From Pyxidicoccus sp. MSG2 (lineage in GTDB: Bacteria; Myxococcota; Myxococcia; Myxococcales; Myxococcaceae), in NCBI RefSeq assembly GCF_026626705.1, contig NZ_JAPNKC010000001.1, forward strand, positions 8,822,001 through 8,886,000: DNA of 64,000 nucleotides, written 5' to 3'. Shown in pieces: positions 25,173-55,349 of the stretch; the first letter of the stretch is position 1, and every line of letters begins with the position of its first letter. The translations under genes and the position numbers were made by a program. The notes beneath the pieces were generated by a model that made no database searches, was not told where the DNA came from, and worked only from the letters and a program-made list of their open reading frames with translations.

Positions 25173-25571
25173 ATGGACCGAATGTTCTTCTACGCCCACT
25201 CCGGGCTGCGCTACCTGGTGCTGCTCGCCGGGGTGCTGGCCCTCGCCTACTTCGCCTTCGGGCTCGCCACGAAGCGACCCTTCGACAAGGGCGGGCGCAT
25301 CCTCGGCGCCTCCTTCGCGGGCCTGCTGCACACCCAGGTGCTGCTCGGCATCCTCGTGCTGGTGACGCGCATCTACTACCCCGCGCTCATCGGCCACATC
25401 GTGATGATGGTGCTCGCCGCCGCCACGGCCCAGGTGGCGATGTCCGTCAACCGGCGCCGCCCCCAGCCGGGCTTCGTGCTGCCCCTGATGGGCGTGGTGC
25501 TGGCCCTCGTCTTCATCGTCGGCGGCATCATGGCCATCGGCCGCGGCGTGTTCACCACCACCGCGATGTGA
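25173..25571 (+). CDS. Small four-helix membrane protein, unknown function
   Basis: A 132-residue protein with four predicted membrane helices (about residues 12-30, 45-64, 73-90 and 102-125). His9 (YAHSGLRYL), His53 (LLHTQVLLG) and His75 (LIGHIVMMV) lie in or near helices and might ligate heme, though this is only a guess. The MFFYAHSGLRYLVLL opening is reminiscent of small respiratory-chain accessory proteins. It sits between the peroxidase and the cytochrome c gene of the complex III block, with 204 bases of regulatory-looking DNA behind it. Confidence 0.72.
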   Translation: MDRMFFYAHSGLRYLVLLAGVLALAYFAFGLATKRPFDKGGRILGASFAGLLHTQVLLGILVLVTRIYYPALIGHIVMMVLAAATAQVAMSVNRRRPQPGFVLPLMGVVLALVFIVGGIMAIGRGVFTTTAM

Positions 25572-25581
25572 AGCTGACGTA

Positions 25582-25624
25582 GCGCGAGCGCACCGTCCCT
25601 GTCGGGAAAATGCTGCGCTCGCGC
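25582..25624. repeat. Interrupted 11-bp inverted repeat upstream of the cytochrome block
   Basis: GCGCGAGCGCA (25582-25592) and TGCGCTCGCGC (25614-25624) are perfect reverse complements separated by 21 bases. It could be a terminator-like hairpin for the membrane-protein gene or an activator site. Its centre is about 100 bases upstream of the sigma-54-like -24 element, a usual distance for enhancer-binding sites. A second 7-bp inverted repeat, TGCCCGC/GCGGGCA, lies at 25676-25699. Confidence 0.45.
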
Positions 25625-25702
25625 GGGCCTCGCGGCGCAAAAGCTGCGCTGGCCTCGCGGCTCTGTCCGGATGTCTGCCCGCATGTTGGCAAGCGGGCAT
25701 CC

Positions 25703-25718
25703 TGGCCCCCTCATTGCA
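25703..25718 (+). promoter_or_regulatory. Sigma-54-like -24/-12 promoter element
   Basis: TGGCCCCCTCATTGCA matches the sigma-54 pattern TGGCAC-N5-TTGCA at all but one defined position, with GG and GC exactly 10 bases apart. It lies 57 bases before the ATG of the di-heme cytochrome gene, leaving a leader of about 45 bases. Sequence match only; in GC-rich DNA a chance match is possible. Confidence 0.5.
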
Positions 25719-25775
25719 GTCGTGCTCCAGCGTGCCGGGCAGTGAGCCCGGCCACTCCTGGAGGGGCACGCGGCG

Positions 25776-26618
25776 ATGTGGACACAGGCCCTGGGTGGAC
25801 GAAGGCCCGCGCGCGGGCTCGCCCCCGTCATTCAGCTCCTCGTCGTGCTGGTGGCGCCCGCCGCGCTGGCTCAAGGCGCCTCGCAGGGCGCGAAGCTCTT
25901 CGCGCAGCGCTGCGGGAGCTGCCACTCGGTGGGCGAGGGCGACCGTGTGGGCCCGGACCTGCACGGCGTGCTGGAGCGCCGTGACGAGGCGTGGGTTGCC
26001 CGCTTCCTGAAGAGCCCGGGCGCGCTCATCGACTCCGGTGACGCGGTGGCCACCGGGCTGCTGAAGCAGTTCAATGGTGTCCGCATGCCGGACCAGGCGC
26101 TCTCCGAGGAGGAGCGCGCCGGCCTCTTCGCCTTCTTCCGTGACTGCACCGCGAAGGGGAAGGGGAGCTGCAGGCCGTCTCCCACCGCGAAGCCGGGGAC
26201 GGACGCCACGTCGGAGGAAGTGGCCCGCGGCCGCCAGCTCTTCGAGGGCACCCAGGCGCTGTCCCACGGTGGCCCCGCGTGCCTCGGCTGCCACGACGTG
26301 CGCGGGCTGGGCGTGGCGGGTGGCGGGACGCTGGGCCCCAACCTCACCTTCACCTTCGCGCGCCTCGGAGACCGGGGGCTGACGCCGCTGCTGGCGAAGC
26401 TGGACACGCCGCTGATGCGCGAGCTGTACGCGAAGACGCCCCTCACGGAGGAGGAGCAATACGCCGTGAAGGCGTACCTCGCGGACGTCTCGCGTGACGG
26501 CAGCCGGCCGCGCAAGGACAGGGACTTCTTCTTCCTCGGCGTCGTCGGGCTCATCGCCGCGCTGGGATTCATCGGACTCGTCTGGGGGCCGCGCGGGACG
26601 GACCCGCGCGCCCACTGA
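25776..26618 (+). CDS. Membrane-anchored di-heme cytochrome c
   Basis: A 280-residue cytochrome with two c-type heme motifs, CGSCH (in FAQRCGSCHSVGEGD) and CLGCH (in PACLGCHDVRGLG). It has an N-terminal signal sequence (VIQLLVVLVAPAALA) and a C-terminal membrane helix (FFLGVVGLIAALGFIGLVWG). The two domains are fused; each resembles a class I cytochrome c. It should sit on the periplasmic face and pass electrons to or from the NarI-like cytochrome b or Alternative Complex III encoded next. The ATG at 25776 follows GAGGGG; the spacer to the next gene is 25 bases. Confidence 0.85.
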   Translation: MWTQALGGRRPARGLAPVIQLLVVLVAPAALAQGASQGAKLFAQRCGSCHSVGEGDRVGPDLHGVLERRDEAWVARFLKSPGALIDSGDAVATGLLKQFNGVRMPDQALSEEERAGLFAFFRDCTAKGKGSCRPSPTAKPGTDATSEEVARGRQLFEGTQALSHGGPACLGCHDVRGLGVAGGGTLGPNLTFTFARLGDRGLTPLLAKLDTPLMRELYAKTPLTEEEQYAVKAYLADVSRDGSRPRKDRDFFFLGVVGLIAALGFIGLVWGPRGTDPRAH

Positions 26619-26643: not shown

Positions 26644-27282
26644 GTGAGCGACTCCCTCCTCTTCTCCTTCCTTCCCTACGCGGCCGCCGTCGCCGCCGTG
26701 GCGGGCACGGTGCACCGCGTGACGGTGCGCACGCCGGCCACGGACCCCCGTGAGCCGTGGACGCCCGCGGGCCGCGCGGTGCTGGCAGGCGGTGTCACCG
26801 TCATCCTCAACCACCTGCTGGGGCTGGCTGCGCCCCGGGCGATGCAGGCCTTCGTCGCGTCCCCGGCGCGCCTCTTCACGCTGGAGGCGGTGAGTCTCAT
26901 CGGCGGCATGCTGCTGGGCTGGGGCCTCTCGAGCCTCACCCTGCGTCGCGCTCGCGAGGGGCAGTGGCTGTTGGCCGGCTTCCTCGGGCTGGTGCTGGCG
27001 CAGGTGCTCACGGGGCTGCACATCGCCGTGACGCTGCGCTGGGGCTCCGCCTGGTATCTCCACCTCGCGGTGCCGTACCTGCGCTCGCTGCTGGCCTTCC
27101 AGCCGGACGCGACGCTGATGGAGAAGGCGCCGCTCGTCTTCCAGGTCCACACCCTGGCCGGCTTCGTGCTGCTGGCGCTGGCCCCGTTCGCCCGCGCGCG
27201 GAAGGCGGCCGCCCTGGCGCTGGTGCCGCCGGCCTCGGAGTCGAACCTGCTCGCCACGCCCCGGGAGGAGACCGCCCGCTGA
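26644..27282 (+). CDS. NarI-like cytochrome b membrane protein
   Basis: A 212-residue membrane protein with five to six hydrophobic segments, resembling the cytochrome b (gamma) subunit of respiratory nitrate reductase and related quinol-linked complexes. His residues suited to heme b ligation occur in TVHRVTVR, ILNHLLGLAA, GLHIAVTLRW, YLHLAVPYLR and FQVHTLAGF. The GTG at 26644 is chosen because upstream codons read as a Ser/Arg-rich antisense-like stretch. No NarG or NarH gene is present, so nitrate reduction should not be inferred. It is in line with the ActA gene, 16 bases downstream. Confidence 0.75.
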   Translation: MSDSLLFSFLPYAAAVAAVAGTVHRVTVRTPATDPREPWTPAGRAVLAGGVTVILNHLLGLAAPRAMQAFVASPARLFTLEAVSLIGGMLLGWGLSSLTLRRAREGQWLLAGFLGLVLAQVLTGLHIAVTLRWGSAWYLHLAVPYLRSLLAFQPDATLMEKAPLVFQVHTLAGFVLLALAPFARARKAAALALVPPASESNLLATPREETAR

Positions 27283-27298: not shown

Positions 27299-27940
27299 AT
27301 GAACGACGCCTCGACCCGCCCCTCACGTCCCATCCGCGCCGCCGGCCACGCGGGCGCGCTGCTGGCCCTGGCCCTGGCCGGGTGCAGCGGCCCGGTGAAC
27401 AACCAGCAGGGCTACATGCCCGAGCAGCCCGTGGCCTTCTCCCACGCCGTGCACGCCGGCCAGTACGAGCTGGACTGCCAGTACTGCCACGTGGGCGCGG
27501 AGAAGAGCCGCCATGCCGGCGTGCCCGCCTCCAGCGTGTGCATGAACTGCCACACGCAGGTGAAGACGGACTCGCCCGAAATCCAGAAGGTGGCGGCCGC
27601 GGTGGCGGCGAACCAGCCCATTGCGTGGGTGCGCATCCACCGCCTGCCGGACCACGCCTTCTTCAACCACGCCAGCCACGTCACCTCGGGGCTGCAGTGC
27701 CAGACGTGCCACGGGAAGGTGCAGGAGATGGTGCGCGTGGAGCAGGCGGAGCCCATGACGATGGGTTGGTGCCTGGACTGCCACCGCAAGACGGCGGCGC
27801 AGCAGGTGTTCGCGCCGAGCCCTTCCGCGCCGCGCTCCGGCGAGCTGCTCGCCATGTCCACCCAGCCCCCGGCGCCCGCGCCGCTGAAGGCCCCCCGCAT
27901 CCTGCAGCCCCCCACGGACTGCTCCGGCTGTCACCGCTGA
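27299..27940 (+). CDS. actA: Alternative Complex III subunit ActA, pentaheme cytochrome c
   Basis: A 213-residue multi-heme cytochrome with exactly five c-heme motifs: CQYCH, CMNCH, CQTCH, CLDCH and CSGCH. Five hemes is the count expected of ActA. The N-terminus carries a signal with lipobox-like ALAGCS, so it is exported and membrane-tethered. YMPEQPVAFSHAVHAGQYELDC is the family's conserved first heme region. In characterised complexes ActA takes electrons from the membrane and iron-sulphur subunits and hands them to ActE or an oxidase. actB follows 11 bases downstream. Confidence 0.93.
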   Translation: MNDASTRPSRPIRAAGHAGALLALALAGCSGPVNNQQGYMPEQPVAFSHAVHAGQYELDCQYCHVGAEKSRHAGVPASSVCMNCHTQVKTDSPEIQKVAAAVAANQPIAWVRIHRLPDHAFFNHASHVTSGLQCQTCHGKVQEMVRVEQAEPMTMGWCLDCHRKTAAQQVFAPSPSAPRSGELLAMSTQPPAPAPLKAPRILQPPTDCSGCHR

Positions 27941-27951
27941 GGACCTCCTCC

Positions 27952-30927
27952 ATGTCCGAGTCCCTTCCCAAGTACTGGCAGAGCCTGGCCGAGCGCGCCG
28001 GCGCGTTGCCCGAGCACGCACGCAACGAGTTCGCGGAGGAGTTGCCGGTGGGCGTGGCCGCCGTGCCTCCGGACGCGAGCAGCCGCCGCGACTTCTTCAA
28101 GGTGATGGGCCTGAGCGCCGCCGCCGCCATGGTGGCCTGCCAGCGCGCGCCCGTGCAGAAGATCATCCCCTACGTCTCGCGGCCGGATGAAGTCACCCCC
28201 GGCCTGTCGCTCTGGTACGCGTCCACCTGCAACGGGTGCAGCGCCCAGTGCGGTGTGCTGCTGAAGACGCGCGACGGGCGCCCCATCAAGGTGGAGGGCA
28301 ACGACGAACACCCCGTCTCGAAGGGCGGCGTGTGCGCGGTGGGGCAGGCGTCCGTCCTCTCCCTCTACGACGCCAGCCGCGCCCGCTTCCCCTCGTTGTC
28401 CTGCCAGCGCACCGCGTGGGCGGCGCTGGACGGGAAGGTGAAGGAGGGACTGCGGCAGGCCACCGAATCGGGCATGCCCATCCGCGTGGTGCTGCCCTGG
28501 GTGATGGGCCCCACGGCCGAGGCCGCGGTGAAGCGCTTCCTCGCCACGTACCCGACGGCGCGCACGGTGCGCTACGAGCCGCTCGGGGAGCTGGCCGCCA
28601 TCGGCGACGCCCACCGGGTCACGCACGGCGTGCGCGTGGTGCCCGACTACCGCTTCGAGAACGCGAAGGTCATCGCCAGCTTTGGCGCGGACTTCCTCGG
28701 CACCTGGGTGTCGCCGGTGGCCTTCACCCGCCAGTACACCGAGGCGCGCGATGCGGCCGGCAAGCGGGACATGGCGCTGCACTACCAGGTGGAGCCCGTG
28801 CTGACGCTCACGGGGGCCGCCGCGGACCGGCGCTTCGTCGTGTCCCCGTCCGATGTGACGCCCGCGCTGGCCGACCTCGTGCGGCGGCTGGCGCGGAAGG
28901 CGGAGCGTGCGGTGCCGGCGGTGGCGTCGGTCGCCGCACCTGCATTGGAAGAGACCGCGCTGGAGGAACTCGCGGAAGCACTGTGGGCGCAGCGGGGCAG
29001 GGCGCTCGTGGTGGCGGGCGGTGACGACGTGGCCGCGCAGGTGCTGGCCAACACGGCCAACGCGTTGCTGGGCAACGAGGGCAACACCGTGTCGGTAGCG
29101 GACGGCGTGGCGCTGGATGCGGACGCGCTGACGTACGGCGAGCTGCTGTCGGAGCTGCGCGCGGGCGGCGTGGGCGCGGTGCTCTTCCTCGGCGTCAACC
29201 CCGCCTATGCGGACCCGCGCGGCGACGAGCTGGCGGCGCTGCTGAAGTCCGTGCTCCTCACCGTGGCCACCAACGACAGGCTGGACGAGACGGCCAGCCT
29301 GATGCGCTTCCACGCACCGGACGTCACCGGCCTCGAGTCGTGGGGCGACGCGGAGCCCCGGCGTGGCGTGCTCTCCCTGCGCCAGCCGGCGGTGGCGCCG
29401 TTGCACGACACGCGCCCCCTGGTGGAGTCCCTGCTCCTGTGGGCGGGGGCACCCCGCTCGCACTACGACTTCCTGCGCGAGCGCTGGGAGGCGGAGGTCT
29501 TCCCCCGCGCGGGCGTGGCCGGACAGGACTTCAGCGCATTCTGGGACGATGCCGTGCGCCGGGGCGTGGTGATGCTGCCCGCGACGCCGGTGGCCGCACC
29601 GGCCTTCCGTGAGGACGGGCTCGCGAAGGCGCTGGCCGGCGTGGCCCGCGCGTCCGTGGACTGGGAGCTGGTGCTGTACCCCACGGTGGCGCTGCGCGAC
29701 GGCGCGCTCGCCAACAACGGCTGGCTGCAGGAGGTGCCGGACCCCATCACCAAGGTGACGTGGGGCAACCCCGCCTGCATCGCCCCGGCACGCGCGAAGG
29801 CGCTGGGCCTGTCCGACGGCGACGTGGTGCGGGTGCGCTCGGGTGCGAAGACGGTGGAAGTGCCGGTGCTCATCCAGGCGGGCACGCACCCGTCCGTCAT
29901 CGCCGTGCCGGTGGGCTACGGCCGCACCAGGGCGGGCCGCATCGCGGACGGCATCGGCGCCAATGGCTATCCGCTGGCCACGGTGGTGGGCGGCCAGTCC
30001 CGGCGCGCGGTGCCGGGCGTGACGGTGGAGTCCACCGGCGAGCGGCAGCCCCTGGCCCTCACCCAGACGTACAACCGTCTCGACGGGCGCCCCCACGTGC
30101 GCGAGGCGGAACTGGCCGCGTTCCTCGCCAACCCGCGCGCGGGCAACGAGGAGCACGAGGCGCACGGTGGCAACGACAAGCACCCGCTCTCCATCTGGTC
30201 CGGCCACGAATACAAGGGCCACCGGTGGGCGCTGGCGGTGGACCTGAGCGCGTGCACGGGTTGCTCGGCGTGTGTGGTGTCCTGCCAGGCGGAGAACAAC
30301 ATCCCCAGCGTCGGGCGCGACGAGGTGCTGCGCTCGCGCGAGATGCACTGGATGCGCATCGACCGGTACTACGCCGGTGACGAGGCCAACCCCCAGGTCG
30401 TCCACCAGCCGATGATGTGCCAGCACTGCGAGAATGCGCCGTGCGAGACGGTGTGCCCGGTGCTCGCCACGGTGCACTCCAGCGAGGGGCTCAACCAGCA
30501 GGTCTACAACCGCTGCGTGGGCACCCGGTACTGCGCCAACAACTGCCCCACCAAGGTCCGCCGCTTCAACTGGTTCGACTACAAGCACGACGAGCCGCTG
30601 GAGCGCATGGTGCTCAACCCGGACGTCGTCGTGCGCAGTCGCGGCGTCATGGAGAAGTGCTCCATGTGCGTGCAGCGCGTGCAGGAGGCCAAGGCCAGCG
30701 CGAATCGCGAGGGCCGCGCACTGCGCGACGGCGACGTGCAGACGGCCTGCCAGCAGAGCTGCCCCGCGAAGGCCATTCACTTCGGAGACTTGAACGACTC
30801 CGGCAGCGCCGTGGCGAAGCTCGCGAAGGACGGCCGCGCCTTCCGGCTGCTGGAGGAGCTGAACATCGGGTCGTCCATCACCTACCTCACGAAGATCCGC
30901 AACACCGGGTCGGGAAGCGAAACATGA
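27952..30927 (+). CDS. actB: Alternative Complex III subunit ActB, Fe-S/molybdopterin-like protein
   Basis: A 991-residue fusion of a molybdopterin-oxidoreductase-like domain and a four-cluster ferredoxin-like domain. A Tat-like sequence RRDFFKVMG begins near residue 45. Cys residues for an N-terminal cluster are seen in [13 protein letters not shown]. The C-terminal domain starts near residue 768 with [11 protein letters not shown] and continues with [26 protein letters not shown] and CSMCVQ...CQQSCP. In known complexes the molybdenum site is absent and the protein relays electrons through the clusters. Its stop overlaps the ATG of actC (ATGA). A 949-residue open frame on the other strand is an antisense shadow. 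Confidence 0.95.
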
Positions 30928-32390
30928 GCCACCAGCACCTGTCGCCGCTGCGCGTGCCGCTCGTCAGCGAGGCGCGCAGCCTGGGCCAGCTCACCGAGGA
31001 AATCTGCGCGCCCATGGAGCGCCCTCCGACGTGGAGGTGGTGGGCGGCGTTCGCGGTGGCGGTGTCGATTCTGGGCACCGGCGCCGGCATCGTCGCGTAC
31101 CAGGTGGGCACGGGCATTGGCGTGTGGGGCCTGAACAAGACGGTGGGCTGGGCCTTCGACATCACCAACTTCGTGTTCTGGGTGGGCATCGGCCACGCGG
31201 GCACGCTCATCTCCGCCATCCTCTTCCTCTTCCGGCAGAAGTGGCGCACCAGCATCAACCGCGCGGCGGAGGCGATGACGCTCTTCGCCGTCATGTGCGC
31301 GGCCCTCTTCCCCGTCATCCACATGGGCCGCCCGTGGCTGGCCTTCTGGGTGCTGCCGTACCCGAACTCGCGCGGCAGCCTGTGGGTGAACTTCCGCTCG
31401 CCGCTCTTGTGGGACGTGTTCGCCATCTCCACCTACTTCACCGTGTCCGCGGTGTTCTGGTACGTGGGCCTCATCCCCGACCTGGCCACCGTGCGCGACA
31501 GGGCGAAGGCCGGCCTGCGCAAGGCCGTCTTCAAGGTGCTGTCGCTGGGGTGGACGGGCTCGCACCGGACGTGGAGCCGCTACGAGACGGTGTACCTGCT
31601 GCTCGCGGGGCTGGCGACGCCGCTGGTGCTCAGCGTGCACACCATCGTCTCCATGGACTTCGCCACGTCCGTCATCCCCGGCTGGCACACCACCATCTTC
31701 CCGCCGTACTTCGTGGCCGGCGCGGTGTTCAGCGGCTTCGCCATGGTGCTGACGCTGATGATCATCACCCGCGTGGTGCTGGGCTACGAGCACCTGATTA
31801 CCGTCCGGCACCTGGAGAACATGACGAAGGTCATCATCGTCACCGGCGGCCTGGTGTCGCTGGCGTACGGGACGGAGGTGTTCGTCGCCTGGTACTCGGG
31901 CAACCCCTACGAGCGCTTCGCCTTCCTCAACCGCGCCTTCGGCCCTTACGCCTGGGCCTACTGGACGATGGTGACGTGCAACGTGGTGTCGCCGCACCTG
32001 TTCTGGTTCAAGAAGGTGCGCACCTCGCCGGCTGCCATCTTCGCCCTGTCGCTGGTCATCAACGTGGGCATGTGGTTCGAGCGCTTCGTCATCATCGTCA
32101 CCAGCCTGCACCGCGACTTCCTGCCGTCGAGTTGGTCCATGTACACGCCGACGATGGTGGAGGTGGGCACCTTCATCGGCACGTTCGGCCTCTTCTTCAC
32201 CCTGTTCCTCCTCTTCGTGCGCGTGCTGCCCATCATCTCCATCGGCGAGGTGAAGAGCGTGCTGGGCTTCGCGCGAGACACACACGGAGGGGCGGCCGCC
32301 CCCGGCCCCCGCAAGGCCGCGCCCGCCGCCGCGGAGGTACTGCCCGCGCCGGCGCTGGCCCTCGCCACCCGAAAGGATGTCCCCGTATGA
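30924..32390 (+). CDS. actC: Alternative Complex III subunit ActC, NrfD-like quinol-binding protein
   Basis: A 488-residue NrfD/PsrC-type membrane protein with about ten helices. The conserved features are [27 protein letters not shown] in the first half, [16 protein letters not shown], and [26 protein letters not shown] in the second. In characterised Alternative Complex III it binds quinol and is proposed to take part in proton translocation. The start overlaps actB (ATGA) and the stop overlaps actD (ATGA), so translation is coupled. The C-terminal 45 residues form an Ala/Pro-rich tail. Confidence 0.95.
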
Positions 32391-32908
32391 GCGCCCCCGT
32401 CCTCGTCGGCTACTTCGACAGCGAGGAGAAGGTCCTCGACGCCACCCGCGCCGTGCGCGAGGCCGGCTACGCCCTGCACGACGTGTACACGCCCTATGCG
32501 GTGCACGGCCTGGACGAGGCCATGGGCCTGAGGCCCAGCCGAATCACCTGGGTGTGCTTCGGGGCGGGGCTGCTGGGCGGCTCGCTGGCGCTGGCGCTCC
32601 AGCTGTACACCAGCGTGGTGAGCTGGCCGCTCAACGTGGGCGGCAAGCCCTTCAACTCGTTCCCAGCCTTCGTCCCCGTGGCGTTCGAGCTGACGGTGCT
32701 CTTCGCGGCGCTCATCACCGTGGGCTCCTTCCTGGCACGCGTGAAGCTCTTCCCGGGCAGCCGCCGCGTGGCGCTGCCCCGGGTGACGGACGACCGATTC
32801 GCGATTGCGCTGGAGGCGCGCGAGGCGCCCGAGGGCGCGTCCATCGCGGAGGAGTTGCTGCGTCGGCACGGCGCGGTGGAGACGGCCCGGATGGAGGTGG
32901 CGTCGTGA
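32387..32908 (+). CDS. actD: Alternative Complex III subunit ActD (DUF3341)
   Basis: A 173-residue DUF3341 protein. A soluble N-terminal part ([41 protein letters not shown]) precedes two membrane helices at about 55-75 and 95-118, with a soluble C-terminal region. ActD spans the membrane in the known complex and has no cofactors. The start overlaps actC and the stop overlaps the GTG of actE (GTGA). Confidence 0.94.
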
Positions 32909-33474
32909 GGAAGGTTTTCCCCGCCGCGGTGGCCCTGGCCCTGGCCGCCGCCGGCTGCGAGCAGGACGAGACGCGGCCCAACTACGAGTACGCACCGGAC
33001 ATGGTGTCCTCGGTGCCGTACGACAGCTTCGCGCCCAACCCCAACACGCCGGACGGCAAGACGCTGCTGGGGCCGGCGAAGGGCACGGTGCCGCGCGGGC
33101 ACCAGCCGCTGCACCTGGCCGCGGGCCCGGAGGAGGCGGCGCGGGCCGGGCGTGACTTCAAGAATCCCTATCCCGCTACACCCGAGGTGCTGGCGCGCGG
33201 GCAGACGGCCTTCCAGCGGTATTGCAGCCCGTGCCATGGCTCGGGCGGGCTGGGGGACGGCCTGGTGACGGCGCGCTTCCCCATGCCGCCGTCGCTGCTG
33301 GCCGAGCACGCGAAGGGGCTCCCCGACGGGCAGGTGTTCCACATCATCACCCATGGCCAGGGGCTGATGCCGGCCCATGGCTCGCAGGTGGCGCCGGAGG
33401 ACCGGTGGAAGATCGTCCACTACCTCCGCACGCTGCAGAACCCCGCGCGGACGGCGCGGAAGGACGTGCCATGA
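32905..33474 (+). CDS. actE: Alternative Complex III subunit ActE, mono-heme cytochrome c lipoprotein
   Basis: A 189-residue cytochrome with one heme motif, CSPCH (in RYCSPCHGSGGLGDG), and a distal Met candidate in GLMPAHG. The N-terminus [18 protein letters not shown] is a lipoprotein signal with lipobox AAAGC, so it is anchored at the periplasmic face. It is the exit cytochrome of the complex in known systems. The GTG start overlaps actD and the stop overlaps the ATG of actF (ATGA). Confidence 0.93.
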   Translation: MRKVFPAAVALALAAAGCEQDETRPNYEYAPDMVSSVPYDSFAPNPNTPDGKTLLGPAKGTVPRGHQPLHLAAGPEEAARAGRDFKNPYPATPEVLARGQTAFQRYCSPCHGSGGLGDGLVTARFPMPPSLLAEHAKGLPDGQVFHIITHGQGLMPAHGSQVAPEDRWKIVHYLRTLQNPARTARKDVP

Positions 33475-34667
33475 GCGCCCCCGTGCATGACGTACCTCCG
33501 GCTTCGGGCGGAGGCTTCGAGGTGTCCCCCGGCGTGCGCCGCGCGGCCCTGGCCGTCGCGGTGGCGGGCCTGGGGACGTTGGGCGCGGGGCTGGTGCTGT
33601 ACCCGGCTCGCGCGCTCTCCAGCCTGCTCACCAGCGGCTTCTACTTCCTGTGCCTGGGCCTGGGCGGCGCCATGTTCCTGGCGCTGATGTACGTGGCCAA
33701 CGCGGGCTGGTTCACCGTCTTCAAGCGCATTCCGGAGGCGTTCGCCTCCTACGTACCGTGGGGCGCGGTGCCGCTGCTGGTGCTGGTGCCCTTCGCGCCG
33801 AAGCTCTACCTGTGGGCGCGGCCCGGCATCATGGAGACGGACCACCTGCTGCACCAGAAGGCGGCCTTCCTCAACGTGCCGTTCTTCGGCGTGCGCATGG
33901 TGCTGACGCTGGCGCTGTGGACGGGCTTCACGTGGATGCTGCGGCGCAACTCGTTGCGGCAGGACTCGGAGCGGACGGAGGCGCTGACGAAGCGCAACGT
34001 CGCGGTGTCCGCGGTGTTCCTCGTGTTCTTCGGCCTGACGTTCTGCCTGGCGGCCTTCGACTGGCTGATGAGCCTGGAGCCGCACTGGTTCAGCACCATC
34101 TACGCGCTCTACAACGTCGCGGGGCTGCTCAGCTCCAGCGTGTGCGCGATTACCGTGGCCGCGATTCTCCTGCACCGGGCGGGCGCGCTGCCCCAGCTCA
34201 ACTCCAGCCACCTGCATGACCTGGGCAAGCTGATGTTCGGCTTCGCCACGCTGTGGGCCTACCTCTGGTTCTCGCAGTTCCTGCTCATCTGGTACGCGAA
34301 CATCCCGGAGGAGACGGTCTACTTCATCGCGCGGATGCACGGCGGGTGGGCGGTGCCGTTCTACCTGAATGTGGTGCTGAACTGGGCGCTGCCCTTCGTG
34401 CTGCTGCTGCCGCGGCCGGCGAAGCGCAGCCCGTCGCACCTGCTGCGGGTGGCGGCCGTGCTGCTCGCGGGGCGCTGGTTGGACCTGTACCTGATGGTGG
34501 CTCCCGCGAACATGCCAGAGGGGGCGGGGCTCGGCGTGTACGAGCTGGCGGGCTTCCTGGGCGTGGGCGCGCTCTTCACGCTGGCGGTGACGCGCGCGGT
34601 GCGCTCGGCGCCCATGATTCCCGCAGGGGACCCGTACCTGGTGGAGAGCCTGCACCACCACACGTGA
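33471..34667 (+). CDS. actF: Alternative Complex III subunit ActF, NrfD-like protein
   Basis: A 398-residue NrfD-type membrane protein with about ten helices, homologous to ActC but shorter. YVPWGAVPLLVLVPFAP, FDWLMSLEPHWFSTIYALYN and WAYLWFSQFLLIWYANIPEE are characteristic of ActF. It is the second large membrane subunit, with possible roles in assembly or proton movement. It is the last gene of the operon; a strong terminator follows at 34736. No cytochrome aa3-type oxidase gene follows, unlike many such operons, so the electron acceptor must be encoded elsewhere, perhaps at the cbb3 locus near 53-60 kb. Confidence 0.94.
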   Translation: MSAPVHDVPPASGGGFEVSPGVRRAALAVAVAGLGTLGAGLVLYPARALSSLLTSGFYFLCLGLGGAMFLALMYVANAGWFTVFKRIPEAFASYVPWGAVPLLVLVPFAPKLYLWARPGIMETDHLLHQKAAFLNVPFFGVRMVLTLALWTGFTWMLRRNSLRQDSERTEALTKRNVAVSAVFLVFFGLTFCLAAFDWLMSLEPHWFSTIYALYNVAGLLSSSVCAITVAAILLHRAGALPQLNSSHLHDLGKLMFGFATLWAYLWFSQFLLIWYANIPEETVYFIARMHGGWAVPFYLNVVLNWALPFVLLLPRPAKRSPSHLLRVAAVLLAGRWLDLYLMVAPANMPEGAGLGVYELAGFLGVGALFTLAVTRAVRSAPMIPAGDPYLVESLHHHT

Positions 34668-47269: not shown

Positions 47270-48868
47270 TCAGCCCAACCCCAGCTCCTTGAGCCGGCGG
47301 CCCAGCGCGCGCCGGGAGACCTCGAGCTGACGCACCATGGCGTCCAGGTCTCCCTGGCACGCGTGGAAGCAGCGCGTAATCTCCTCCACGCTCAGGTCCC
47401 CGGCGGTGCGCAGGTGGGGCACGCGCTCGATGAGGTCGTAGACGGAGGTGCGGTGGATGCCGAGCCTGTCCGCGGCGGCCTGGAAGTCCCAGCCTCCCTC
47501 CCGCAGCGCGGTGAGCAGCTCCTCCGGGGAGACGTCCGAGGGCTTGCGGCGGGGCACGGCGGGAGCGGGGCCGGGCATGGCGGTGGTGGCGGGGCGGCCG
47601 GTCGACGGGGGCCCGTCCGCCGAGAGCTCCTGCTCGAGCTGGGCGTCGAGCCTCAGGCGCGGCTGGCCGCGGTTGCCGATGACGAGCTGCCGCGCCACGT
47701 TGCGCAGCTGCCGGATGTTGCCCGGCCAGCCGTGACGCAGCATGCGGACCGCCAGCGGCGCCGGGAGCCACGGCTCGGTGAAGGGGTCCTCGGGACTCAG
47801 CCGGTGCGCCTCGCCCAGCACCTCCAACTCCTCGCGGGCGAAGTGGTGGAAGAGCGGCCCCACGTCCTCGGGCCGCTCACGCAGGGCGGGGACCCGGATG
47901 GAGTAGCCGGCCAGCCGGTGCAGCAGCGGCGCCTTGAAGCGGCCGTCGCGAATCCGCTCTTCCAGGTGCGCGTCCGTGGCGGCCACCAGCCGCACGTCCA
48001 CGGCGATGGGCGTGCGCGAGCCGACAGGGTACAGCTCTCCCGTCTCCAGCACGCGCAGCAGCATCACCTGGACCTCGGGGGGCGCCTCCCCCACCTCGTC
48101 GAGGAAGAGCGTCCCGCCGTGGGCCGCCTGGAAGTAGCCGTCCTGGTCCTTCACCGCCCCGGTGAAGGCCCCCTTGCGCGCGCCGAACAGCTCGGAGGCG
48201 GCCAGCTCCCGGGGGATGGCGCCCAGGTTGACGCTGACGAAGGGTCGCTCCCTCCGGGGACTGAGCTGGTGGATGGCGCGGGCGATGAGCTCCTTTCCGG
48301 AGCCCGTCTCGCCGCGGATGAGCACGGGCACCCCCAGGTCCGCCACCTGCTCGACGTGGCGGCGGACCCGCTGGATGCCCGCGCTGGCGCCTACCATGCC
48401 CAGCGAGTCCCCTGCCCGTGGGGGCGCGGAGTCCGCCAGGTGGAGCAGCAGCACCACACGGCCGGCCAGCACCAGTGGCACTCCGGCGGCCACCTCCTTG
48501 GAGGACAGCTCCCAGGGGCCCTGCAGCGGCTCGCCACTGAGGGAGACCCGGGTGTCCGCGGCGGGCGTCAAGCGGAGGCTGCCCCCCGGGCCGGGCGCGA
48601 GGACCAGCGGCTTGCGACTGATGAACGGGTCGGCCAGGTGCGAGCCCAGCGCTCCCCCGGGAGGGACGAAGACCGGGGCATTGCGCGAGAGCGCCACGTC
48701 GCGGCCCGCGGCGAGCCCCTCCAGCAAGAGGCGGTCTCCCACGCGGTGGGGCAGGGGATGCGAGACGACGGTCAGCGCCGGCAGCAGGGGCGTGTCGTGA
48801 GGGTGAGGCTCCTCGCCCGACTCGCGCACGTTGGCCGTGGAGAAGTCCTCGAGGGAGGGCTCGCGCAT
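47270..48868 (-). CDS. FHA-like sigma-54-dependent activator with two Fis-type helices
   Basis: A 532-residue bacterial enhancer-binding protein. An N-terminal FHA-like region (about 40-145, with NAPVFVPPGG and FISRKPLVL) replaces the response-regulator receiver. The AAA+ domain has Walker A GETGSGKE (about 185), the sigma-54 contact loop GAFTGA (about 232), Walker B GGTLFLDEVGE and WPGNIRQLRN. The C-terminus carries two helix-turn-helix-like units, WDFQAAADRLGIHRTSVYDL and DLDAMVRQLEVSRRALGRRL, where one is usual. FHA domains bind phosphothreonine, so a Ser/Thr kinase may be the input. The ATG at 48868 is preferred to an upstream GTG. It is next to the RhiA-like gene. Confidence 0.92.
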   Translation of the reverse strand: MREPSLEDFSTANVRESGEEPHPHDTPLLPALTVVSHPLPHRVGDRLLLEGLAAGRDVALSRNAPVFVPPGGALGSHLADPFISRKPLVLAPGPGGSLRLTPAADTRVSLSGEPLQGPWELSSKEVAAGVPLVLAGRVVLLLHLADSAPPRAGDSLGMVGASAGIQRVRRHVEQVADLGVPVLIRGETGSGKELIARAIHQLSPRRERPFVSVNLGAIPRELAASELFGARKGAFTGAVKDQDGYFQAAHGGTLFLDEVGEAPPEVQVMLLRVLETGELYPVGSRTPIAVDVRLVAATDAHLEERIRDGRFKAPLLHRLAGYSIRVPALRERPEDVGPLFHHFAREELEVLGEAHRLSPEDPFTEPWLPAPLAVRMLRHGWPGNIRQLRNVARQLVIGNRGQPRLRLDAQLEQELSADGPPSTGRPATTAMPGPAPAVPRRKPSDVSPEELLTALREGGWDFQAAADRLGIHRTSVYDLIERVPHLRTAGDLSVEEITRCFHACQGDLDAMVRQLEVSRRALGRRLKELGLG

Positions 48869-49184
48869 GAGGGGCACCTGGCTGGATGGCGTGGATGGCG
48901 CCGACTCTACCCCATGGGCCTTGCACGCACCTTCCGCCTCGTTGGGGTGTCATCCGACCCGGAGGGTCGATGTCTGTCGAATGCGTCCGGCGAAGGCAAT
49001 CACAGACGTGCGGCGATGGCTCGCCGCATTCCTCGGGACGGCGTTCACGCGTCATGGTTGGCTTCGACCTCTCAAAATCCCATGGAGCGTGTTCAGGAGG
49101 CATGCAACAGGCGGCCCGTGTTCGCACTCCACGGGCCGTCCAGGTCGGCATCAACCGGGCTGGGAATGCAGGGCGAGCTGGCGC
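48869..49184. other. 316-bp spacer, no gene seen
   Basis: Between the activator gene and the RhiA-like gene. No open frame here resembles a protein. A weak minus-strand GG-N10-GC element (TTGCA at -12, poor -24) lies near 49104-49120, too poor to call. No clear terminator hairpin was found. Confidence 0.5.
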
Positions 49185-52175: not shown

Positions 52176-52883
52176 TCAGTGGCAGCGTGCCGGGGCCACC
52201 GCGCGGTAGACGAGCACCGCCGCCGCGAGCAGCGGCACTGCCCGCTGGAGGACGAAGGCCGCGGCGCGGGGCCGGTGCCTCCACAGCCCCGCCTGGAGCT
52301 GCGCGCCGAGCAACGCTGGCAGCCCGCCAAGCGAGAAGGCCCCCAGCACCAGCGCGCCGCCACCGAAGGAGCCGCTCGCCAGCGCCGCCGCGAAGACGCC
52401 ATACAGCAGACCACAGGGCAGCAGCGGCGTTACCGCACCCATTGCACCCGCGCGGCCCGTCCACGAAAACTTTGCGCCCCAGCGTGAGACGTGACGCACG
52501 ACGTGCGACAGGCCCGGAAGCGGACGCAGCCTCTTGCCCACCTCCAGCGCGGAGGCCACCAGCGCGGCCGCCATCAGCCAGGGCAGCCAGGGCCGCGTGG
52601 ACACGGCCAGCGCCCGCGTCACTCCGCCACCGAGCACGCCCAGCGCCCCGCCCACCAGTGTGTACGCCGCCACGCGCGCGCCCTGATACGCGAGCACCGC
52701 CCGGCGCCGCTCGGGGCCCGGCACCGCGGGCAGCCCCGCGCAGGCCAGCGGCCCGCACATGAGGAGGCAGTGCACGCTCCCGGTGAGCCCCACCGTCAGC
52801 GCACCCAGTGCGCCAGCCGCCACCGCCGGTGAGGGCGAGAGCGCGGCGAGCAGCGAGGAAAGGGCGGTCATTTCGAGCGGCAT
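52176..52883 (-). CDS. SafE/DsbD-like membrane protein of the cbb3 locus
   Basis: A 235-residue membrane protein with six predicted helices, in the sulphite exporter TauE/SafE-like (DsbD_2/UreH-type) family often found beside cbb3 genes. Cys residues sit in HCLLMCGPLACAG and in TPLLPCGLLYGVF, the conserved cysteine sites of the family. It may help deliver copper or maintain thiols for oxidase assembly. The ATG at 52883 is chosen; starts at 52871 and 52907 are possible. It is divergent from ccoI with a 48-base spacer. Confidence 0.8.
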   Translation of the reverse strand: MPLEMTALSSLLAALSPSPAVAAGALGALTVGLTGSVHCLLMCGPLACAGLPAVPGPERRRAVLAYQGARVAAYTLVGGALGVLGGGVTRALAVSTRPWLPWLMAAALVASALEVGKRLRPLPGLSHVVRHVSRWGAKFSWTGRAGAMGAVTPLLPCGLLYGVFAAALASGSFGGGALVLGAFSLGGLPALLGAQLQAGLWRHRPRAAAFVLQRAVPLLAAAVLVYRAVAPARCH

Positions 52884-52931
52884 GTCCCCCTGCTTCGCAA
52901 CAGGCATGCCGTTCGCAAGGTGACACCGTGC

Positions 52932-55349
52932 ATGCCTGCCTCCTCGCAAGTCGCACCCGCTTCGGACGCCTGCCTCCACTGCGGCAGTCCCGTCCCCGTG
53001 GGCGCGGCGTCGCGCGACTTCTGTTGCGCGGGGTGCGAGGCCGTGTACGGCCTGCTGCGAGAGCAGGGCCTTACCCGCTACTACCAGCTCACGCAGGGGA
53101 AGGCGGCGCCCGCGCCAGAGCCTCGAAAGGACCGGGGCTTCTCGTGGCTGGAGCCGCTGATGGCTCGCGCGGAGGCCGTCCCAGGCCCGGTGTGCGCGCT
53201 GGAACTGGACGTGCAGGGCATCCACTGCGCCGCGTGCGTGTGGCTGATGAACGAGCTGTTCCGCCGGCAGCAGGGCGGGGCGGGGCTCACGGTGGACCCG
53301 GCGCTCGGCAAGGTGCGCATGCAGTGGCGGCGCGGCGCCTTCGACGTGGGCGGCTTCCTGCGCGCGGTGGAGGGCTTCGGCTACCTCTTCGGCCCCAGCC
53401 GCAAGCACCCGGAGGCCGCCAGTCTCGATTTGCCCATCCGCCTGGGCATCTGCGCCGCGCTGGCGATGAACGTGATGCTGTTCTCAGTGAGCTTCTATGT
53501 CGGGCTCACTCCCGAGGATGGCGACGTCTTCCGACTCTTCACGCGGCTGAGCCTGGCGCTGTCCACCGGTGTCGTCCTGGTGGGCGGGTGGCCCTTCTTC
53601 CGCTCCGCCGTGCAAGGGCTGCGGCGCGGCGTGCTGCACCTGGACCTGCCGATTGCGCTGGGCATCCTCCTCGTGTTCGGCACCTCGCTGGTGCAGGCCC
53701 GGGGCGGCCGTGGCGACCTGGCCTACTTCGACACGCTCAACACCTTCGTCACCCTGATGCTGGTGGGGCGCTGGCTCCAGCAGCGTGTGCTGGAGCGCAA
53801 CCGCCGCTTCCTCCTGGAGGATGACGGCGCGGAGGGGCTGTTCGTCCGCAGGCAGGAGGGTGAGCGGCTCGCGACCGTGCGCGCCGCCGAGGTGGGCGAG
53901 GGCGACGTGCTCGTGATTGCGCCGGGCGACCTGGTGCCCGTGGACGCCGTGTTGCTCGAGGCGGACGCGCGCGTGTCCACCGACTGGATTACGGGCGAGC
54001 CCGGGGAGCGCACCGTGGCCCGGGGGGACTCACTGCCCGCGGGCGCGTTCAACGCGGGACGCGAGGCGGTGCGGGTGCGTGCGGCGCAGGCCTTCACGGA
54101 CTCGTCGCTGGTGGCGCTGTTGCGGAGGGCCCCGGCTGGGACGGGGGGCGCCGCGGTCCACACGCGATTCTGGGACCGGGTGTCGCGCCGGTGGGTGGTC
54201 ACCGTGCTGGGGGTGGCCGGACTGGGGCTCGCGCTGTGGTGGCCGGCCGGCCCGGACAAGGCGCTCGAGGTGGCGGTGGCGCTGCTGGTGGTGACGTGCC
54301 CGTGCGCCATCGGCATCGCCACTCCGCTCGCGTACGAGCTGGTGCAGGCGCGCCTGCGTCGCGGTGGCTTCTTCGTGCGGAGCCCGGACCTGATGGACCG
54401 GCTGCCCCGCGTGCGGCAGGTGCTCTTCGACAAGACGGGGACGCTGACGCTCGGGCGGCTGGAGCTGGTGGACCGTGCGTCGGTGGAGGTGCTGGCACCC
54501 GAGGCCCGGGACGTGGCCTTCGACCTGACCTCGCGCAGCAACCACCCGGCGAGCCGCTGCCTCAGCGTGGCGCTGGCTCGCGCGGGGGCGCGGTTCTCCG
54601 CGGAGGCACGGGTGACGGAGCACGCGGGGCAGGGCGTGGAGCTCACCCGCGACGGCGTGTGCTGGCGGCTGGGCCGTGCGCAGTGGGCCGTGGCGGGGCA
54701 GGGCGTCGCTTCCGCCGCGGGCCCCGTGCTCACCCGGGACGGTGTGCTCGTGGCCACCTTCGCCCTGCGCGAGTCGGTCCGCTCGGACGCGCGGCGCGAA
54801 GTCCAGGCGCTCCAGGACGAGGGCCGCGCGGTGTGGCTCATCTCCGGCGACGCCCCGGCGCGCGTGAGGGACATGGCCGAGGCGCTGGGCATTCCCCTCA
54901 CACACGCGCTGGGTGGCCAGCGTCCCGAGGACAAGGCCTCGACGGTGGCTGCGCTGGACGCGGCGGACACGCTGTACCTGGGCGACGGTGTCAACGACAG
55001 CCTCGCCTTCGAGCGCGCCCTCTGCGCGGGCACGCCCGCCATCGACCGGCCCGTCATGCCGGGCAAGAGCGACTTCTTCCTCCTGGGCGAGGGACTCGCC
55101 TCCATCCGCGAGGCCCTCCGCCTGTCGCTGCGGCTGCGCCAGGTGGTGCGCAGGCTGCTGACGCTCGCCGTGGCCTACAACGTCGTGGCCGTCACCGTGT
55201 GCCTCGCCGGGTGGATGACGCCGCTGCGTGCCGCGCTGGCCATGCCCGCCACCAGCCTCGCCACCGTCCTCTTCACCGTGTGGAGCCTGTCTGCCGCCCG
55301 CGAGCGCCCGGCCTCCACTCCCACGCAGCTGCGGGAGGTGCCCGCATGA
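52932..55349 (+). CDS. ccoI: Copper-translocating P1B-type ATPase CcoI/FixI
   Basis: An 805-residue P1B copper ATPase of the CcoI group, which supplies copper for cbb3 oxidase. It begins with a zinc-ribbon-like block CLHCGSP...FCCAGCEAVYG, followed by one HMA-type metal-binding motif GIHCAACVW. About eight membrane helices carry the CPC ion site (Cys456-Pro-Cys458). The phosphorylated Asp500 is in DKTGTLT, and TGEP and GDGVNDS motifs are present. The stop overlaps ccoS (ATGA). The N-terminal Cys block is the usual mark separating CcoI from CopA. A GTG 12 bases upstream is an alternative start. Confidence 0.93.
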   Translation: MPASSQVAPASDACLHCGSPVPVGAASRDFCCAGCEAVYGLLREQGLTRYYQLTQGKAAPAPEPRKDRGFSWLEPLMARAEAVPGPVCALELDVQGIHCAACVWLMNELFRRQQGGAGLTVDPALGKVRMQWRRGAFDVGGFLRAVEGFGYLFGPSRKHPEAASLDLPIRLGICAALAMNVMLFSVSFYVGLTPEDGDVFRLFTRLSLALSTGVVLVGGWPFFRSAVQGLRRGVLHLDLPIALGILLVFGTSLVQARGGRGDLAYFDTLNTFVTLMLVGRWLQQRVLERNRRFLLEDDGAEGLFVRRQEGERLATVRAAEVGEGDVLVIAPGDLVPVDAVLLEADARVSTDWITGEPGERTVARGDSLPAGAFNAGREAVRVRAAQAFTDSSLVALLRRAPAGTGGAAVHTRFWDRVSRRWVVTVLGVAGLGLALWWPAGPDKALEVAVALLVVTCPCAIGIATPLAYELVQARLRRGGFFVRSPDLMDRLPRVRQVLFDKTGTLTLGRLELVDRASVEVLAPEARDVAFDLTSRSNHPASRCLSVALARAGARFSAEARVTEHAGQGVELTRDGVCWRLGRAQWAVAGQGVASAAGPVLTRDGVLVATFALRESVRSDARREVQALQDEGRAVWLISGDAPARVRDMAEALGIPLTHALGGQRPEDKASTVAALDAADTLYLGDGVNDSLAFERALCAGTPAIDRPVMPGKSDFFLLGEGLASIREALRLSLRLRQVVRRLLTLAVAYNVVAVTVCLAGWMTPLRAALAMPATSLATVLFTVWSLSAARERPASTPTQLREVPA

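Follow-up and report, generated by a model that had tools for sequence, protein, structure and literature searches.

A conserved sigma-54 promoter with paired NmpR-like sites precedes the Alternative Complex III operon in Pyxidicoccus and related genera

How is the production of Alternative Complex III (ACIII), a quinol-oxidising respiratory complex, controlled in Pyxidicoccus and its relatives? Among the papers listed by our literature searches, none dealt with the regulation of ACIII in Myxococcus xanthus. The ACIII genes studied here lie in a 64-kb window (the whole stretch of DNA that was analysed), behind a spacer that the first-pass annotation had read as regulatory. Our analyses suggest that this spacer holds an NtrC-type sigma-54 promoter, and we consider it highly probable that this promoter is driven by the response regulator NmpR under low oxygen.

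The genes downstream of the spacer, all on the plus strand, include ActA, ActB, ActC, ActD, ActE and ActF in that order, as identified from solved structures and Pfam. The first gene encodes a cytochrome c with two CXXCH motifs (25776-26618) and is followed by a NarI-like membrane protein of the nitrate reductase gamma family (26644-27282, start codon uncertain; PF02665). ActA (27299-27940) is a multihaem cytochrome c with five CXXCH motifs and has 6f0k chain A as its best solved match. ActB (27952-30927, start approximate) is a molybdopterin-like plus Fe-S subunit that matches 6lod_B (E 6.5e-189) and the ACIII subunit B 6btm_B (E 1.2e-172). The NrfD-like ActC (30924-32390) matches 6btm chain C (E 8.8e-197), ActD (32387-32908) matches PF11821 (ActD, E 6.4e-54), and ActF (33471-34667) matches 6btm chain F (E 3.2e-67). 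ActE (32905-33474, start inferred), a cytochrome c with one CXXCH, was searched as the longer open reading frame 32377-33474; the apparent fusion of ActD and ActE is an artefact of overlapping frames. The cytochrome c, the NarI-like protein and ActA-F probably form one eight-gene operon and would be co-transcribed. Of the named organisms in the records compared, Pyxidicoccus caerfyrddinensis is the closest, with 97% identity in the first operon protein.

With this first protein as query, 96 family genomes were searched and matches were obtained in 58. We separated a strong set of 34 loci (27 from genus g1, five from g15 and two from g20; E 9e-105 or better) from seven intermediate homologues (L041-L047; E 1.5e-74 to 4.8e-38). 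Excluded were 17 genomes with a best E of 8e-13 or weaker, which are probably other cytochromes, and likewise six weak loci (L020-L025).

A sigma-54-like promoter with one deviation had been proposed at 25703-25718, and this reading was borne out. The element, TGGCCCCCTCATTGCA on the plus strand, is an exact TGGC-N7-TTGCA with the GG-N10-GC spacing that is correct for sigma-54; it deviates once from TGGCAC-N5-TTGCW and twice from YTGGCACG-N4-TTGCW. No other exact TGGC-N7-TTGCW occurs in the window. Because a mean of 0.9 such matches per window is expected by chance (30 shuffles of the window), a lone match is weak evidence. Dinucleotide shuffling of the spacer alone (25572-25775) produced an exact coding-strand match in 2 of 2000 cases. 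In the spacer alignment, all 34 strong loci from the three genera keep the exact TGGC-N7-TTGCA, with six of its seven interior columns variable. In every one of them the element begins at -70 to -82 from the start codon, where starts are partly estimated, and at -73 in the window.

Two further sites lie upstream on the same strand. The promoter-proximal site S2 (GCGCAAAAGCTGCGC, 25635-25649) is a perfect GCGCA-N5-TGCGC palindrome in all 34 loci, with all ten half-site columns invariant, and the six columns just after it have 15-59% identity to the window. The more distal S1 (GGGAAAATGCTGCGC, 25604-25618) deviates from the palindrome at two positions in 22 loci, including the window, and at three in the other 12. 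At the S2 half-sites and at the letters of TGGC and TTGCA, every locus agrees with the window (100% identity); over the remaining ten-base blocks from 25566 to 25695, identity averages 27-67%. An exact GCGCA-N5-TGCGC arose in 15 of 2000 spacer shuffles; followed in this order by TGGC-N7-TTGCW, 40-70 bp apart, it arose in none of 2000. The alignment thus supports the presence of a conserved sigma-54 promoter, with S1 and S2 as putative paired enhancer-like sites, before the ACIII operon.

NtrC-type promoters carry GG at -24 and GC at -12 with ten bases between them, and further upstream a pair of palindromic sites separated by about three turns of the helix. The ACIII promoter resembles them in its GG-N10-GC spacing and in the number and separation of its palindromic upstream sites, with S2 lying 52-56 bp from the -24 element across the 34 loci (53 bp in the window); unlike them, it has TGGCC rather than TGGCA at -24. 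By the geometry of sigma-54 promoters, in which the start lies 12 nt past the GC at -12, transcription would begin at 25729. The 5' leader that follows (25730-25775) includes, within 25730-25771, a hairpin with GCCGGGC and GCCCGGC arms around AGTGA, and a Shine-Dalgarno-like GGAGGGG. After 25736 the leader is 79-89% identical to the window across the 34 loci. Six stem pairs of the hairpin are kept in 15 or 16 of the 16 loci aligned for it (16 of the 34), with one two-sided change; its stability shows no excess over shuffles (z-score 0.00), which leaves a regulatory role of the hairpin unsupported.

The GCGCA-N5-TGCGC palindrome was derived from the sequence ahead of, and independently of, the published consensus for NmpR, with which S2 agrees letter for letter. 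According to the sections of PMC11841059 available to us, NmpR of Myxococcus xanthus is an NtrC-like response regulator, dependent on sigma-54, that acts last in the NmpU-NmpS relay. There, binding to GCGCA-N5-TGCGC is supported by EMSA, activation requires the sigma-54 site, and mutational work marks the promoter-proximal S2 as the essential site (PMC11841059). NmpR is controlled by an oxygen-sensing kinase, in a model in which NmpU and NmpS allow its phosphorylation at low oxygen, and oxygen depletion raises expression of the NmpR target mxan_4236 6.5-fold (PMC11841059).

The components of this relay are present in the genome of the window (13.3 Mb). Its single protoglobin kinase is NmpU (G000:C1:10872711-10873901), and NmpR, a receiver-AAA+-HTH_8 protein, is encoded about 5.5 kb away (10879349-10880761, minus strand) in a gene row headed by a CBS-domain gene. 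A pair of sites 14 bp apart lies directly upstream of the CBS gene, and another, 24 bp apart and followed by a sigma-54-like site, lies about 1 kb upstream of nmpU. These are the spacings given for mxan_4236 (14) and nmpU (24) in the available part of PMC11841059. In M. xanthus nmpU is the first gene of its operon (PMC11841059); in the window's genome a 276-codon open reading frame (G000:C1:10871800-10872630, L250) stands between the NmpR-like sites with their promoter and nmpU. All 34 genomes with the ACIII promoter have an NmpR orthologue (83-100% identity). In g20, a strong homologue of the first operon gene occurs in two of the three genomes with NmpR (G070 and G072) and in none of the four without. 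NmpR also occurs without such a homologue, namely in G033, G071 and 12 of 16 g18 genomes (14 genomes of g15, g18 and g20) and in more distant genomes such as G031 and G092. Co-occurrence of regulator and operon is therefore suggestive only, and is confounded by kinship.

The published search for NmpR targets looked for two sites, each with at most two deviations and 5-50 bp apart, with a sigma-54 site within 500 bp, in the same orientation and within 400 bp of the start (PMC11841059). The window's promoter falls within these rules, with two deviations in S1, none in S2 and 16 bp between the sites; the 12 relatives with three deviations in S1 would fail. The promoters bound in EMSA, as far as the available sections of PMC11841059 describe them, were more uniform, with a spacing of 14-15 bp in five of seven and the GCA-N5-TGC core kept in every bound site. 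Unlike these, the ACIII promoters have a spacing of 16 bp in 31 of 34 loci and 15 bp in three, and the core, intact in S2, is broken in S1 in 17 loci (the window among them) and intact in the other 17. Because of this spacing and the state of the S1 core, we regard the ACIII operon as a predicted NmpR target rather than an established member of the regulon.

The assignment appears to be new. The seven promoters, pieced together from the sections at hand, are those of pilR, mxan_4236, nmpU, mxan_3966, mxan_5543 (cbb3), mxan_5532 and mxan_1578 (PMC11841059). The main text of that paper does not name the ACIII operon or contain the terms 'alternative complex', 'complex III', 'quinol', 'molybdopterin' or 'hibernation'. 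Its Fig. 5 legend states that each site of every unbound promoter had a mismatch; given that the ACIII S2 of M. xanthus (G090) is perfect, the tested set apparently did not include the promoter of the ACIII operon, as far as the available sections allow this to be judged. In the accessible parts of the literature, PMC12753109 and PMC6211767 included, we saw neither ACIII nor HPF described as being controlled by NmpR.

We therefore favour a scenario in which the region 25604-25718 would act as an NtrC-type sigma-54 promoter for the eight-gene operon. When oxygen is low, the kinases NmpU and NmpS would let NmpR become phosphorylated, as in the published M. xanthus model, and NmpR dimers would occupy S2 and, with it, S1. 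The bound NmpR may then form a higher oligomer and remodel the RNA polymerase-sigma-54 complex waiting at TGGC-N7-TTGCA, so that transcription would begin near 25729. In this way, a shortage of oxygen would lead the cell to make both its quinol-oxidising ACIII branch and the cbb3 oxidase.

It could be argued that the operon is expressed by the housekeeping (sigma-70) factor and that the sigma-54 element is a look-alike, as nearly one exact match per window would be expected by chance. This is very improbable given the conservation of the element around a mostly variable interior, and a simple consensus scan of 25400-25900 returned no sigma-70-like site. A different view of the activator sites, that of the first-pass annotation, placed them in two inverted repeats. 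Both repeats exist: a perfect one of 11 bp (25582-25592 / 25614-25624), which is unusual for this spacer since a repeat at least as long arose in only 12 of 2000 shuffles, and one of 7 bp, which we take to be that at 25676-25682 / 25693-25699. However, exact copies are kept in only three and two of the 34 loci, respectively, the window's locus included, and the conserved part of the longer repeat is the half of S1 that its right arm overlaps. Because they are kept so rarely, we do not regard the repeats as enhancers; the 34-locus alignment already refutes them as a shared mechanism, and of the readings weighed here this one deserves the least credence. Nor was there support for reading the inverted repeat as a terminator. 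The proposal that a signal-dependent activator takes the place of the housekeeping sigma factor survives in its main part, through the conserved promoter, the paired sites and the lack of a sigma-70-like match in the scan, and fails in the role given to the repeats. It is the conserved S1/S2 pair, and not the repeats, that points to NmpR and oxygen limitation.

An unlikely alternative, though one to be taken more seriously than the two above, is that the sigma-54 promoter is genuine and answers to another NtrC-like activator with the same half-site preference, such as a paralogue of NmpR. The sigma-54 activator domain is matched 74 times in the window's genome, many relatives carry NmpR-like paralogues of about 50% identity, and the HPF gene of genus g18 (see below) retains a sigma-54 site with no NmpR site, as if activators were exchangeable. 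Against this, NmpR itself is the only protein in the window's genome to pass E 1e-130, and S2 is the published consensus itself. One candidate within the window, a sigma-54 activator encoded at 47270-48877 (minus strand), was dropped because it is absent near the operon in relatives: tblastn (E 1e-8) gave no match in the flanks, up to 20 kb, of ten other genomes (for G035, a 12.4-kb contig). The first 160 residues of this activator match no Pfam family.

With NmpR as the preferred activator, the phylogenetic extent of the promoter can be considered. The first-pass annotation had suggested comparing the spacer in related myxobacteria and had named a lack of conservation between species that keep the operon as grounds for refutation. 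Across the three genera, the outcome was favourable at all 34 loci. The seven more distant homologues do not show this arrangement. There, L041 has two NmpR-like sites cramped against a promoter with one deviation; in L045, two sites with 15 bp between them lie far upstream, unaccompanied by a good promoter; and TGGT-N7-TTGCA is the form common to L043, L044 and L047. The region upstream of L046 has no sites or promoter of this arrangement, and L042 is without readable upstream sequence. We did not count these partial likenesses as support. Four of the five g15 genomes have about 1.5-2.8 kb, instead of about 0.2 kb, between the operon and the membrane-protein gene upstream of it, and still keep the promoter.

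Genome-wide searches place the motif before the same operon. In all 27 genomes of the genus, the pattern AAANGCTGCGC-N40-70-TGGC-N7-TTGC has a single match, which in each case precedes the ACIII operon; its reversed control has no match in them. When the pattern of site plus promoter was relaxed, 45 matches were obtained, spread over 35 of the 96 family genomes (33 before the ACIII operon, 10 before an S30AE/HPF gene and two elsewhere), compared with one for the reversed control in 96 genomes. The opposite orientation gave 10 matches, five of them before a dehydrogenase gene, and one in the control. The paired upstream site alone matched in 24 of 96 genomes (control, one match); further places found in this way were a dehydrogenase/thioredoxin-like intergene (four genus genomes), an S30AE/HPF-type gene (two g15 genomes) and one stray match in G105. 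A loose pair pattern, among the matches listed, gave 316 matches in the 27 genus genomes compared with 41 for the reversed control, counted on both strands of a near-palindromic pattern. Among those listed, the window's genome had 9+11 against 0+0, and G010 5+5 against 3+4. The loose pattern was not used to name regulon targets.

The cbb3 cluster (mxan_5543), a published NmpR target in M. xanthus (PMC11841059, available sections), served as a control. Upstream of the cbb3 operon in the window (fixI, ATG at 52933), no clear site pair was found in four genomes. A perfect GCGCA-N5-TGCGC at 52799-52813 occurs in the window only, among these four, and a weak sigma-54-like site, AGGCATGCCGTTCGCA (52902-52917), is kept in all four with A or G as its first base. 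Because the published target nearest in kind gave no clear pair, our reading of the motif is not complete.

Other genes have promoters of related design. A short S30AE/HPF-type ribosome hibernation gene in the window's genome (L202; G000:C1:4536267-4536336, minus strand) has an upstream architecture like that of the ACIII promoter. In this and other HPF promoters (L190, L194, L203, L205, L206, L152, L174 and L184), the sites resemble CCGCA-N5-TGCGG, are separated by 14-16 bp in promoters that have two of them, and accompany TGGC-N7-ATGCA. A site with an intact core (at most four deviations) occurs at least once in 39 of the 49 genomes that have NmpR and in none of the five that lack it; 25 of the 49 have two or more sites, and a sigma-54-like site is found in 50 of 54 genomes. 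Because a single genus, g18, makes up most of the exceptions (nine of ten) and of the negatives (three of five), this co-occurrence is not independent evidence. The prediction is weaker in nine M. xanthus-like genomes because only the upstream HPF site is recognisable there. In g18 (L248 and L292-L302), the HPF gene has the sigma-54-like site and no NmpR site, even in genomes with NmpR, and it was possibly rewired to another activator. In G031 (L307), nmpR adjoins the HPF gene on one strand, about 250 bp away, with a sigma-54-like site between them. Paired NmpR-like sites also lie between a D-lactate-type (D-2-hydroxyacid) dehydrogenase and a thioredoxin-like gene (G000:C1:5933242-5933330; L163 and L212-L216), with TGG(A/T)-N7-TTGCA facing the dehydrogenase and a universal stress protein gene next after it; by these patterns, the sites occur in five genomes of the Pyxidicoccus branch.

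From the perspective of known systems, the ACIII promoter resembles the NmpR (NmpRSTU) regulon of M. xanthus in its paired GCGCA-N5-TGCGC sites, downstream sigma-54 site and oxygen-related target, as far as that regulon is described in the available parts of PMC11841059 and PMC6211767, and the window's genome encodes both NmpR and NmpU. The proposed oxygen-responsive induction of a high-affinity respiratory branch is also reminiscent of FixLJ and FNR control of cbb3 oxidase, as cited in those parts of PMC11841059; unlike these, it would act through sigma-54 and an NtrC-like regulator and would include ACIII. The kind of promoter is thus ordinary, and the specific prediction is that ACIII is under oxygen-limitation control. 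Whether ACIII in Myxococcus and its relatives belongs to a single NmpR/sigma-54 oxygen-limitation programme, rather than being a housekeeping quinol oxidase, is in our estimate evenly balanced. Such a programme would join quinol oxidation by ACIII, including the cytochrome c and the NarI-like subunit that belong to it, to cbb3, to ribosome hibernation by short HPF and, in the Pyxidicoccus branch, to D-lactate fermentation and a universal stress protein. If so, one oxygen-sensing relay would govern an entire branch of respiration, perhaps along with ribosome hibernation, as a sigma-54 counterpart of the FNR or DosR dormancy regulons.

Among the loci collected, L100 comes from a record titled 'Comamonas sp. 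KCTC 72670' (BNCN01000001.1); the locus is of Myxococcus type, and the genome is likely misnamed.
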